From: a bacterium
Lineage (GTDB): Bacteria; Myxococcota_A; UBA9160; UBA6930
Assembly (NCBI GenBank): GCA_024226235.1
Contig: JAAELW010000188.1
Coordinates: forward strand, 1 to 47,675
Length of the DNA stretch: 47,675 bases
Reading direction: 5' to 3'
Part shown: piece after piece, positions 20,957-32,488 of the stretch
Layout: each line of letters begins with the position of its first letter
How positions within the stretch are numbered: the stretch's first letter is position 1
Notes under the pieces: model-generated
Told to the model about the DNA's origin: nothing
The model's database searches: none
The model's input: the letters and a program-made list of their open reading frames with translations, nothing else
Translations under genes and position numbers: made by a program

Positions 20957-22831
20957 CTACGAGCTGAGGCGGGCCATCAGCTCGATCACTCTCTCGGCAC
21001 CGAAGATCAACGCAGCGAGCAGGGCCTTCGAGCGCGCGACCGCCCCACTCAAACTGCCGTCGTCCCTCTTGGAAGCGATCTGTAGATCGTGCAGCTCGCT
21101 CTGGGCCAGGTACTCGACGACCGGAATCCGCTCGAGACGTTTGTGGACTTTGCGCTCGGCCTTCGCTGCAGCTCGCAGCAGGGAGGGTGCAGCTGCAGTT
21201 CTCTGGGCGCCTTCGAAGCGTCCAAACTTCTCCAGCGCTCGGCCCGCCTCGGCCCGGAGTCCACGGGCTGCGCTGGCGAGAGCCACGGCATCCGCAGCCA
21301 GATCGACCGAAGCGGTCGAAGCATTTTCCGCCAGCGTCCCCGCAAGCCTTTCATCGGCGTGAAGCGTCGGGCCCGCGAGCTCTCGAACGAGCGGCCCGAA
21401 GGGTTCGTGCTCGAGACCCGGAATGCGAGCCCCACCTTCCGTGCAGTTGATGAGACGAATGCCCTCCCGCGCCAGAGTGTCTCCGACGAACCGGAATTCC
21501 TCTCTAAAACTCGCGTAGCTCTGGCTGGTCCATACCTCATCGCCGTACCAACCTTCCACCCGAAGGGCTCCCGGAGCGAGTTCCCTATCCGGGGTCGGGC
21601 GGTCGAACAGGTCGGCCTTGACCTTGAGGTTCGTAAAGTAGAGGCTCCCGTCCTCTGCTTGCTCGACCTCCAGATCCTCGTATACGGAGCCCTCCGCATA
21701 ACGTCGATCATTCGTAAAGGCGAGATCCTGACCGATCAACATCACGACCTCGGCGCCGAGGAACTCAGCGAGGAATACGGCCGAGACCGCGACCGTTCCG
21801 CCGGAGCGAAGCCACTCCGTCTCGCCGAGGCTCTTCCCCAGCCAGGCGGAGAACGGATTCGAGGCTTCGAAACCGATGAAACGGCGGCCGACCGGGAGAC
21901 CGAAGAGCTGCGCATGGGATTGGGGCACCAGAACTAGATTCTGATCGCCGAGGCTGGCGACGCGGTCGAACTGGTGCGTGACGTCCTGGGCCTCGGTCAC
22001 GAGCACCAGATCAGGGCGGATGCCTGCATGCTCGAGCGCCGCCAGGCTCTGACCGATCGCAATCACGAGCAGTTGATCGCGATGCTCCGCAAGCGCCGGA
22101 AGCTGCTTCGTGAGCGAGGGGCCGGCCGCACATACGACCGCCGAGGCGCCGGCGAATGCTCCCTTCAACGGCCCGATACGTGCACATCCGGACAGACGCT
22201 GCACGTTGTCGACGGCGGTAAGCGCCCAAGGCTGCACCCAGGCCCTCAGAGTGGCGCTTTTCACGTCGATCGTCTCTTTGGCCCGCGCGATGCGTGAAAC
22301 CGCGGAGCGCAGTGCGTCGGGTGAGAGGCGGCCGAAACCTGGATGCACGAGGACATGAAGCGACAGCCCGGCCGAATACCATTCCGACAGTTGCCCTATC
22401 ATCGCATCCTCATCGATGGACAATCGCACGTCTTTGCAGTCGAGAAGGGGCAGCGGTCGAGCGGCGAGAGCACCGTGCAGGAGACCGAGGTAGGGCTCGA
22501 ACACGAGCACCCGCCGTGCACCGCGCTTCCGTAACGCCTCGAGCTGGTGACCGGTACCGAAGCCAAGGGCCACCACGAGGTCCGAACCTTCGGGAATCTG
22601 GCTTGCGAGCCGTTCTCCATCCGCGCTGGGATCGTAGGCGGAGGCCATCAGGATCCCTCGGAAGGAAAGGGTCGATTCGCCGGTCGGACCCGTCACGGCT
22701 TCGACCTCCGACGCATCCGCGGACGCGATGGCCTGAGCGAGCCCACGAGCGGTCCTGCGAAACCGCGACAGGTTGCGTTCGAGATGGTCCTTCGACGGAG
22801 GATCGAGCTTGGGTATGGATGTCTGCACCAT
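20957..22831 (-). CDS. DUF115/MAF (motility accessory factor)-type glycosyltransferase
   Basis: VVALGFGTGHQLEAL; ASAVVCAAGPSLTKQLPAL; GTVAVSAVFLAEFLGAEVVMLIGQDLAFTNDRRYAEGS; start could instead be ATG at 22891. Confidence 0.85.
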   Translation of the reverse strand: MVQTSIPKLDPPSKDHLERNLSRFRRTARGLAQAIASADASEVEAVTGPTGESTLSFRGILMASAYDPSADGERLASQIPEGSDLVVALGFGTGHQLEALRKRGARRVLVFEPYLGLLHGALAARPLPLLDCKDVRLSIDEDAMIGQLSEWYSAGLSLHVLVHPGFGRLSPDALRSAVSRIARAKETIDVKSATLRAWVQPWALTAVDNVQRLSGCARIGPLKGAFAGASAVVCAAGPSLTKQLPALAEHRDQLLVIAIGQSLAALEHAGIRPDLVLVTEAQDVTHQFDRVASLGDQNLVLVPQSHAQLFGLPVGRRFIGFEASNPFSAWLGKSLGETEWLRSGGTVAVSAVFLAEFLGAEVVMLIGQDLAFTNDRRYAEGSVYEDLEVEQAEDGSLYFTNLKVKADLFDRPTPDRELAPGALRVEGWYGDEVWTSQSYASFREEFRFVGDTLAREGIRLINCTEGGARIPGLEHEPFGPLVRELAGPTLHADERLAGTLAENASTASVDLAADAVALASAARGLRAEAGRALEKFGRFEGAQRTAAAPSLLRAAAKAERKVHKRLERIPVVEYLAQSELHDLQIASKRDDGSLSGAVARSKALLAALIFGAERVIELMARLSS

Positions 22832-22849
22832 CGGCAACCAGTTTTGTGC

Positions 22850-31296: not shown

Positions 31297-32488
31297 ACGC
31301 AACCGTTGCTTCGTAGAAGGTCAGGGTCGGCACCTGACCGAGACCCAGCCGGCGCAGGTTCGCGAGCATCTCGTCCTGGAAGTCGTAGCTCGAAATCACG
31401 ATCACATCCGGGCGAAGCGCAGCCAGCCCTTCGGGCGCGACCACCGGCAGACCCAGTACGCGGCTCCCCTGCTTTGCTGGGTTGCCGTCGACCAGCGCAA
31501 CCAACTCTGCCTTGCGCAGATCGGTGGCATCCAGCAGACACTCGGTATGGTAGCCCGCACCGTAGATCGCAATGCGCAGCTCCTCGCTGCGCCAGCCCGG
31601 AAGCTCTGCGTCGACCCTTGCACGAAGTCGCGTCAGAAAGGCGCACCGCTTCTGGAAGTAGCCCTGGAGCACACCGCGAACGCGGTCGACGAGCTGAGGG
31701 TCGCCTGCGACGGCTCTACCTTCCTGCCCGCCCTTCCGAGCGACCATCCGGAAGGCGGGAAACGGAAAGTCATCCGCAACGGCCATCGGCTGCAAGCCGA
31801 ACGACTGGAGCAGCGATGCGAGAGTGCCCGGGCAGAAATTGAACAGGTGATCGAAGGTGAAGAAGTCCACCGCACTATCGAAACGTGGGCGCAGTACGTT
31901 GGGAACCTCGATGAAGAGCGCCCCTCCCGGTGCCAACAGCTCGTAGCATCGGGCAATGCCAGCTCGCGGATCACTCAGGTGTTCGAGCACGTGGGAGAGG
32001 ACGATCAGATCGAATCCCTCGTCTTCGAGTTCGGCATCCTCGAATCGTCCCGCCCAGGCGGGTACCGCCCAGCGCTCCCGGGCAAGTGCTGCCGCACTCG
32101 CCTGCGGCTCAATGCCATGAACCACGGCGCCGCGATCCCGAAGCAGCTTCAGCAGGAAGCCCTCGTAGCAGCCGACCTCGAGGACCCGCAGGCCCGACAG
32201 GCTTCCAAGAGTCGCCTCGATCCAGGCCGCCTGATCGCGGCGACTCCCTTCACCCGGAATCCGGTCGTCGCCGTCCTCTGCGACGAAAGCGTCGCGCTCT
32301 TGAGCCGAGTAGAAGGAAGCCAACAATGCGGGGTCGGGTTGGGGATCGGTGAACACCAGACCGCATTGCCGACACAGGACGCTGCGGATATCGAACGGAA
32401 CCTCGCGTTCCGCTGTGAGAATCCGGAAGCCTCTCTGGACCTGGAGCTCCTCGCCGTCCTGGGCGCCACAATTGCAGCAGGCGTACAT
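31268..32488 (-). CDS. SAM-dependent methyltransferase with N-terminal zinc-binding domain and C-terminal Rossmann domain (sugar C-methyltransferase type)
   Basis: MYACCNCG...LCRQCG (2x CxxC); VLEVGCYEGFLLKLLRDRG; VLSHVLEHLSDP; C-terminal RIAIYGAGYHTECLL...VDGNPAKQGSRVLGLPV. Confidence 0.85.
   Translation of the reverse strand: MYACCNCGAQDGEELQVQRGFRILTAEREVPFDIRSVLCRQCGLVFTDPQPDPALLASFYSAQERDAFVAEDGDDRIPGEGSRRDQAAWIEATLGSLSGLRVLEVGCYEGFLLKLLRDRGAVVHGIEPQASAAALARERWAVPAWAGRFEDAELEDEGFDLIVLSHVLEHLSDPRAGIARCYELLAPGGALFIEVPNVLRPRFDSAVDFFTFDHLFNFCPGTLASLLQSFGLQPMAVADDFPFPAFRMVARKGGQEGRAVAGDPQLVDRVRGVLQGYFQKRCAFLTRLRARVDAELPGWRSEELRIAIYGAGYHTECLLDATDLRKAELVALVDGNPAKQGSRVLGLPVVAPEGLAALRPDVIVISSYDFQDEMLANLRRLGLGQVPTLTFYEATVAFSNVAAHSA

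Follow-up and report, generated by a model that had tools for sequence, protein, structure and literature searches.

The window analysed here is a stretch of 47,675 nucleotides (contig JAAELW010000188.1, assembly GCA_024226235.1) from a bacterium of the lineage Myxococcota_A; UBA9160; UBA6930. Between positions 20957 and 32488 it harbors eight genes that form a real, co-inherited and functionally coherent cluster, which is a variant of a known system, the sfm genes for flagellin glycosylation of Shewanella oneidensis MR-1, and not a categorically new pathway. We read the set as an sfm-type cluster for the synthesis and transfer of a nonulosonate, in which acylation by an ATP-grasp ligase replaces PseH, and give this model as a whole a probability of about one half. 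Its parts differ in strength: synthesis of a nonulosonate with transfer by the neighboring MAF-type glycosyltransferase is highly probable, flagellin is the likely acceptor, and the replacement of PseH by the ligase is put forward tentatively. The new features are a GH57-like companion, a clade of NeuB synthases devoid of the SAF domain, a swap in the type of thiamine diphosphate (ThDP) enzyme, and the lack of any PseH match over the cut-off in 28 carrier genomes.

In S. oneidensis, sfmABCDE (SO_3261-SO_3265) are required for flagellin glycosylation and encode a NeuB of 290 amino acids (aa), a ThDP enzyme of 581 aa, a FabG-like short-chain dehydrogenase/reductase (SDR) of 255 aa, a methyltransferase of 395 aa and an ATP-grasp protein of 412 aa, with a MAF gene upstream (PMC3765264). 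The window counterparts measure 313, about 571 (within a fusion), 251, 406 and 407 aa. Because gene content and approximate sizes match, a likeness judged on content and length and not on sequence, we regard the window cluster as a variant of this genetically known system. The original prediction had proposed a candidate novel pathway, a claim that is not supported, since the NeuB-ThDP-SDR-methyltransferase-ATP-grasp core beside a MAF gene matches sfmABCDE and similar modules occur in several phyla. The 2013 sfm study left the chemistry of the individual genes open, and noted PseB and PseC in Shewanella with no clear PseH, PseG, PseI or PseF (PMC3765264). Beyond that paper, no report of a transketolase/ATP-grasp module was found in the literature searched, in which few subscription journals were covered.

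All eight predicted genes were confirmed as open frames at the stated positions, and their families were assigned with Pfam and NCBIfam profiles. Six lie on the forward strand: a NeuB-family synthase without SAF (23031..23972), a PseG/SpsG-like protein, predicted to be a nucleoside diphosphate (NDP)-sugar hydrolase (23969..24940), a fusion (24937..27333) of an SpsF-type cytidylyltransferase (CTP_transf_3, about 24937-25600) to an acetolactate-synthase-like ThDP enzyme (TPP_enzyme_N/M/C, about 25621-27333), a FabG-like SDR (27330..28085; PF13561/PF00106), an ATP-grasp carboxylate-amine ligase with an L-amino-acid-ligase C-terminal domain (28082..29305), and a GH57-like protein of 664 aa, predicted to be a retaining glycosidase or transglycosidase (29302..31296). 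At each of the five junctions between these six frames the neighbors overlap by 4 bases (start codons at 23969, 24937, 27330, 28082 and 29302; ends of the stop codons at 23972, 24940, 27333, 28085 and 29305), as would be expected of one translationally coupled operon. On the reverse strand, an MptE-like/PseD-related MAF gene lies upstream in divergent orientation (20957..22891, 644 aa from the ATG at 22891; PF01973, 111.8 bits), and a gene for an S-adenosylmethionine (SAM) methyltransferase with a Methyltransf_14 C-terminal domain lies downstream, convergent with the GH57-like gene (31268..32488; PF13489/PF08484).

Two congeneric genomes, G002 (loci L034/L076) and G001 (split over L035/L126 and L036), keep the whole set in the same order, together with the fusion and the two flanking genes, with 49-71% identity for the proteins compared. 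Since the same arrangement recurs in both, neither the fusion nor the gene order is an assembly accident or due to chance. The nearest records that bear a name place the organism in Myxococcota. The MAF orthologue adjoins the cluster in the two congeners, and the methyltransferase orthologue keeps its position with 63% identity. Synteny stops at the cluster edges, because the genes beyond MAF differ: both congeners harbor thiolase-like and DUF1214 genes there (L034 14738-17334, L035 12055-14655), and the window a flavin adenine dinucleotide (FAD) oxidoreductase gene.

The neighborhood survey used the GH57-like protein as probe, since the other cluster proteins have many paralogues, and when 84,980 species genomes were scanned with it, 64 loci emerged, distributed over Myxococcota, Alpha-, Beta- and Gammaproteobacteria, Desulfobacterota-type lineages, Syntrophomonas, Verrucomicrobia, Vampirovibrionales, KSB1 and others. 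Of these, 57 contain one or more nonulosonate genes, 46 an ATP-grasp gene, 34 an SDR gene and 33 a flagellar gene. An acetolactate-synthase-type ThDP gene occurs in 7 of the 64 and a split transketolase (Transketolase_N plus Transket_pyr/Transketolase_C) in 24, the two together in none; the ThDP chemistry is thus kept while the enzyme is swapped, an argument that the step is real. Only the genus of the window, G001 and G002 included, showed the SpsF-ThDP fusion; elsewhere the ThDP gene is free-standing or a split transketolase stands in its place. Together with the synteny in the two congeners, the survey upholds the expectation that these genes are inherited as one nonulosonate-plus-MAF set. 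The clearest named example, from a cultured organism, is plasmid pDCAR1 of Solidesulfovibrio carbinolicus DSM 3852, with the order NeuB, pseF, PseG-like, methyltransferase, fabG, two transketolase halves, methyltransferase, ATP-grasp, glycoside hydrolase, pseB and pseC. Kordiimonas marina and Plasticicumulans acidivorans are further cultured carriers. In other families of the order to which the window belongs, flagellin-FliD-FliS-MotAB loci contain the GH57 gene, flanked by PseC and MAF.

Several variants were seen among the surveyed loci. In two relatives of the same order (G025 and G031), a transaldolase/fructose-6-phosphate-aldolase-like gene follows the SDR and ATP-grasp genes (L041 1014-1709, L204 about 5500-6300), in loci that also contain sulfotransferases and a TylF-type methyltransferase; it is possibly a third carbon-carbon bond enzyme in place of the ThDP enzyme. 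In Alphaproteobacteria (L090, L094, L103, L108, L113, L138 and others) SpsF and PseG appear to be fused in frames of about 600-800 codons, unlike the SpsF fusion of the window. A protein of 801 aa adjoining GH57 and PseG (L037 12059-14464, the same as L093), with a homologue in KSB1 locus L088, gave weak matches to UDP-GlcNAc 2-epimerase and CDP-glycerol glycerophosphotransferase.

Co-occurrence was followed in 98 related genomes, 15 of which have a strong GH57 match. NeuB is present in all 15 and in 24 of the 83 other relatives; FlhA in 14 of the 15 and in 16 of the 83. When only flagellated relatives are considered, NeuB is found in 15/15 genomes with GH57 and in 8/16 of the others. The fifteenth genome, which lacks FlhA, is that of the congener G002, where other flagellar genes are present. 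We considered whether G002, without matches to flagellin, FlhA or PseB, could be a non-flagellate carrier and hence evidence against a flagellar role, and rejected this, as the assembly is 82% complete and includes two hook/basal-body genes.

The window NeuB matches PF03102 with 180.9 bits (cut-off 22.1), has no SAF domain, and reaches 150.3 bits against the PseI model TIGR03586, under its cut-off of 340.25. Its AlphaFold2 (AF2) model has a predicted local distance difference test (pLDDT) score of 94 (the row of plasmid locus L211 being left out of the alignment used for folding) and matches the structures of 6ncs, NmNeuB, CjPseI and SpsE. The SAF-less NeuBs of these loci share features absent from the SAF-bearing NeuBs compared: EFHLD (EKH-T in SAF-bearing enzymes), GHCWL and, nearly without exception, the C-terminal WRADPxDGxRPxR, which is also present in the window protein. 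In a tree of 64 NeuB sequences, one long branch with support 100/100 separates the 49 that bear this signature from the rest, and they form a distinct and strongly supported clade. At the 5' end of the window gene, an 18-base tandem repeat in four copies (23035-23106) encodes a QPSP-rich N-terminus before the conserved core. In many carriers, including G103, G107, G109, G114, G031, G057, G065 and G067, no NeuB other than the SAF-less enzyme was found, which is therefore likely to be the main synthase there, probably making the core sugar.

The remaining proteins are related to characterized families at varying distance. The PseG-like protein falls below the cut-off of TIGR03590 (49.8 bits, E 3.6e-13, cut-off 153.55) and is a relative rather than an equivalog. 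The MAF-type protein, with 74.3 bits (E 8e-21) against NF050051 (PseD), is far under the cut-off of 670, and is predicted to be a protein O-nonulosonate transferase. The ThDP domain scores 441.6 bits against acetolactate synthase TIGR00118, under the cut-off of 538.35, with the ThDP fold, the conserved catalytic Glu of RHEQG and the GDGS...N ThDP motif kept. The ATP-grasp protein matches PF18603 LAL_C2 (64.6 bits, cut-off 29.4) and ATP-grasp_3 (35.8 bits, cut-off 23.2), and its closest solved structure is the L-amino acid ligase BL00235 (3vot).

The usual task of PseH is to acetylate the 4-amine that PseC leaves behind. No PseH match over the cut-off (TIGR03585) was found in any of 28 carrier genomes, the window genome included, the best reaching 40.8 bits against 93.1; this set also comprises the congener G004, which has a flagellar nonulosonate locus and no GH57 cluster. 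The same search gave a match over the cut-off in 1 of 14 control genomes. With no PseH over the cut-off and a carboxylate-amine ligase in the same operons, the ATP-grasp ligase is the natural candidate for acylating this amine. As to the precursor, the original prediction noted no PseB or PseC, which is correct within the window and does not extend to the genome: contig C257 carries PseB (TIGR03589, 440.5 bits, cut-off 407.75) beside a PseC-like gene (TIGR03588, 369.7 bits, below the cut-off of 423.5), with another MAF gene adjoining the pair. The precursor sugar therefore need not differ, contrary to what had been supposed as one option.

From these elements we infer the following order of steps. 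PseB and the PseC-like enzyme of C257 would make UDP-4-amino-4,6-dideoxy-AltNAc, whose free 4-amine would not be acetylated by any PseH. The ThDP domain would add two carbons to an acceptor, the SDR would reduce the ketone so formed, and the methyltransferase may add a methyl group, giving a polyhydroxy acid that the ATP-grasp ligase would join to the 4-amine as an amide. The PseG-like protein would then take off UDP, the SAF-less NeuB would condense the sugar with phosphoenolpyruvate (PEP), the SpsF domain would make the cytidine monophosphate (CMP)-sugar, and the MAF protein would transfer it to Ser/Thr residues of a surface protein, with flagellin as the most likely target, while the GH57-like protein may act as a cytoplasmic retaining glycosidase or transglycosidase in the same pathway. 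An acylated and methylated sugar is the most consistent reading of the gene set, in agreement with the modified nonulosonic acid proposed at the outset.

The Shewanella glycan offers a chemical frame for this model. It is a 274-Da nonulosonic acid bearing a 236-Da group, detected as a mono-N-acetyl pseudaminic acid (Pse)-like ion, C11H19N2O6+ (275.124), plus C9H16O7, C10H18O7 or C11H20O7, the C9H16O7 group being nitrogen-free (PMC3765264). If the latter is an amide-linked acid, the free acid would be C9H18O8, with one carbonyl and otherwise saturated; by arithmetic only, and not uniquely, this equals tetrose + pyruvate + C2H4O + 2H, or 6-deoxyhexose + pyruvate + 2H. The formula is compatible with a ThDP-dependent two-carbon addition followed by SDR reduction, without proving it.

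Several observations weigh against the sfm-type acylation model. Some relatives of the order have GH57, PseB/PseC, NeuB and MAF, and their ATP-grasp gene lies in another place or could not be found. GNAT enzymes scoring below the PseH cut-off are present and could acetylate the amine, and the significance of the co-occurrence counts is overstated, as the relatives are phylogenetically dependent. The window cluster does not lie on the flagellar contig, where a second nonulosonate locus is found, so that its target may be another protein or its product a second sugar. Finally, deletion of sfmA to sfmD leaves flagellin of unmodified size, and deletion of sfmE produces a slightly smaller shift with filaments kept; loss of the ThDP, SDR or methyltransferase gene thus removes the whole glycan and not just a side group (PMC3765264), and the sugar itself could be the substrate of these enzymes.

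The last point leads to an alternative that we consider unlikely, in which the ThDP enzyme adds a two-carbon branch to a keto-sugar intermediate that the SDR reduces, the nonulosonic acid itself being branched and the ligase adding, for example, an amino acid. Known branched-sugar pathways also use two unrelated types of ThDP enzyme, in line with this alternative, and in many loci the SDR gene adjoins the ThDP or transketolase gene, as well as the ATP-grasp gene. The sfmB and sfmC mutants, moreover, lose the whole modification (PMC3765264). However, the 274-Da core of Shewanella is an ordinary Pse-like ion with no extra core carbons, and the additional C9H16O7 is separate and free of nitrogen, which also speaks against an amino acid in that organism (PMC3765264).

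About as improbable is a target other than flagellin, for instance a surface glycan or a different protein, with a repurposed MAF and a flagellar locus using its own nonulosonate set. The window genome does have such an ordinary-looking locus, on C85 (L033, 11750-18465) and C257 (L200, 1-3300), with a SAF-bearing NeuB, SpsF, WbqC, a radical SAM/B12-binding protein, MAF, PseC and PseB, so that the window set stands apart from a flagellar contig with its own NeuB, SpsF and MAF. Congener G004 harbors only the flagellar locus and no window cluster, and shows on one contig (L201) MotAB, a methyltransferase, WbqC, SAF-bearing NeuB, SpsF, radical SAM/B12, MAF, PseC and PseB. Against this stand the 33 of 64 GH57 loci with flagellar genes, the flagellin-FliD-FliS loci of the window's order in which PseC and MAF flank GH57, and the retention of the cluster in G002 together with hook/basal-body genes. 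The radical SAM/B12 gene also recurs between ATP-grasp and GH57 in L116, L117 and L119.

Our first idea, that the SAF-less NeuB makes the side-chain acid from an aldose and PEP, to be extended and reduced by the ThDP enzyme and SDR and coupled by the ligase to Pse from a SAF-bearing NeuB, would fit the presence of both NeuB types in the window genome and G001, the active-site change from EKH to EFH and the missing SAF (a domain that contacts the N-acetyl group in NeuB), and the sum of tetrose, pyruvate, C2H4O and 2H, but it was demoted and is the least likely of the three, because many PseB/PseC carriers showed no other NeuB, so that the SAF-less one must make the core there unless the assemblies are incomplete, and Solidesulfovibrio has one NeuB in its locus with pseB, pseC and pseF.

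Across phyla, the GH57-like protein accompanies nonulosonate genes, as seen in 57 of the 64 loci, and its place beside PseC, PseG, NeuB, ATP-grasp or MAF in most of them ties it to the nonulosonate pathway. The original prediction had named it as one part of the set, without singling it out, although it is the really new component. It matches PF03065 with 72 bits (cut-off 21.2), and its AF2 model, from 40 sequences, has a pLDDT of 92. The GH57 family is usually linked to starch and glycogen, and the top Foldseek match is the 4-alpha-glucanotransferase (TLGT) of Thermococcus litoralis (1k1w/1k1x, 1k1x being the top hit), followed by GH38 mannosidases. The two share a similar architecture, Glu136 aligns with TLGT Glu123, and Asp234 lies within the acid/base motif; we take both to be catalytic residues and Asp234 to be equivalent to D214 of TLGT. 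Neither Glu136 nor Asp234 varies in alignments of 9 and of 40 sequences, and the protein is therefore predicted to be an active retaining enzyme. It differs from TLGT in its identity of about 14%, its invariant KKQxKYNxxRW stretch and its occurrence in nonulosonate loci rather than in starch metabolism, a genomic context that argues against an action on alpha-glucans. No report of a GH57 enzyme in flagellin glycosylation was found in the literature searched.

In the rest of the window, a gene of the nitrous-oxide reductase type (nos_propeller, cupredoxin) is followed by NosD and 4Fe-4S proteins (39406-46543); together they probably form a nos operon of this Myxococcota genome. The best candidate for a sigma-28 promoter upstream of the NeuB or MAF gene was no better than those in shuffled sequences, and neither Rfam families nor tRNA genes were found in the window. 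The PADLOC defence models gave a single weak match to a methyltransferase domain, which we regard as generic.

These results link the Shewanella sfm genes to a module present in Myxococcota, Pseudomonadota, Desulfovibrionales, Bacillota, Verrucomicrobiota and others, and bring a GH57-fold enzyme into flagellar sugar loci. They offer testable roles for the ligase in place of PseH and for the ThDP enzyme and SDR in building the acyl group, and since a cultured environmental bacterium carries a complete copy, the system can be tested; the points that merit such work are the GH57-like protein and the proposed substitution of a ligase, served by exchangeable ThDP enzymes, for PseH. The motif WRADPxDGxRPxR may serve as a diagnostic NeuB motif for finding such systems. 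A broader interpretation, which we hold to be rather doubtful, would see here a widespread and unrecognised branch of nonulosonate synthesis, combining an ATP-grasp ligase and a purpose-built polyhydroxy acid in place of PseH, exchangeable carbon-carbon bond enzymes (acetolactate-synthase type, split transketolase, perhaps transaldolase-like) with an SDR, a core made by the SAF-less NeuB, and a novel step by a GH57-fold enzyme.

Among known systems, sfm is the closest, sharing the short NeuB, the IlvB-like ThDP enzyme, the FabG-like SDR, the SAM methyltransferase, the ATP-grasp protein, a MAF gene next door, PseB/PseC elsewhere and no clear PseH; only the window has the PseG-like gene, the fusion of the cytidylyltransferase to the ThDP enzyme and the GH57-like gene, and the gene order differs. 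The canonical PseB-C-H-G-I-F pathway of Campylobacter and Helicobacter has in common with the window genome PseB, PseC-like and PseG-like proteins, a synthase of the NeuB/PseI fold, CMP activation and a MAF/PseD-type transferase, whereas here PseH is missing, the window synthase lacks SAF and is far under the PseI cut-off, and ThDP, SDR, ATP-grasp and GH57 enzymes are added. Bacillus subtilis SpsE-SpsF-SpsG provides the best solved sequence match for NeuB (SpsE, 1vli, which has a longer C-terminal part), together with an SpsF-type cytidylyltransferase and an SpsG/PseG-type protein; no ThDP, ATP-grasp or GH57 enzyme is known to accompany it. The systems for two-carbon branching, YerE/YerF of yersiniose and the E1-type pair of avilamycin, likewise combine a ThDP enzyme with a reductase and use two unrelated ThDP types for similar work, acting on NDP-keto sugars, while in the window cluster a ligase follows the ThDP enzyme and SDR.

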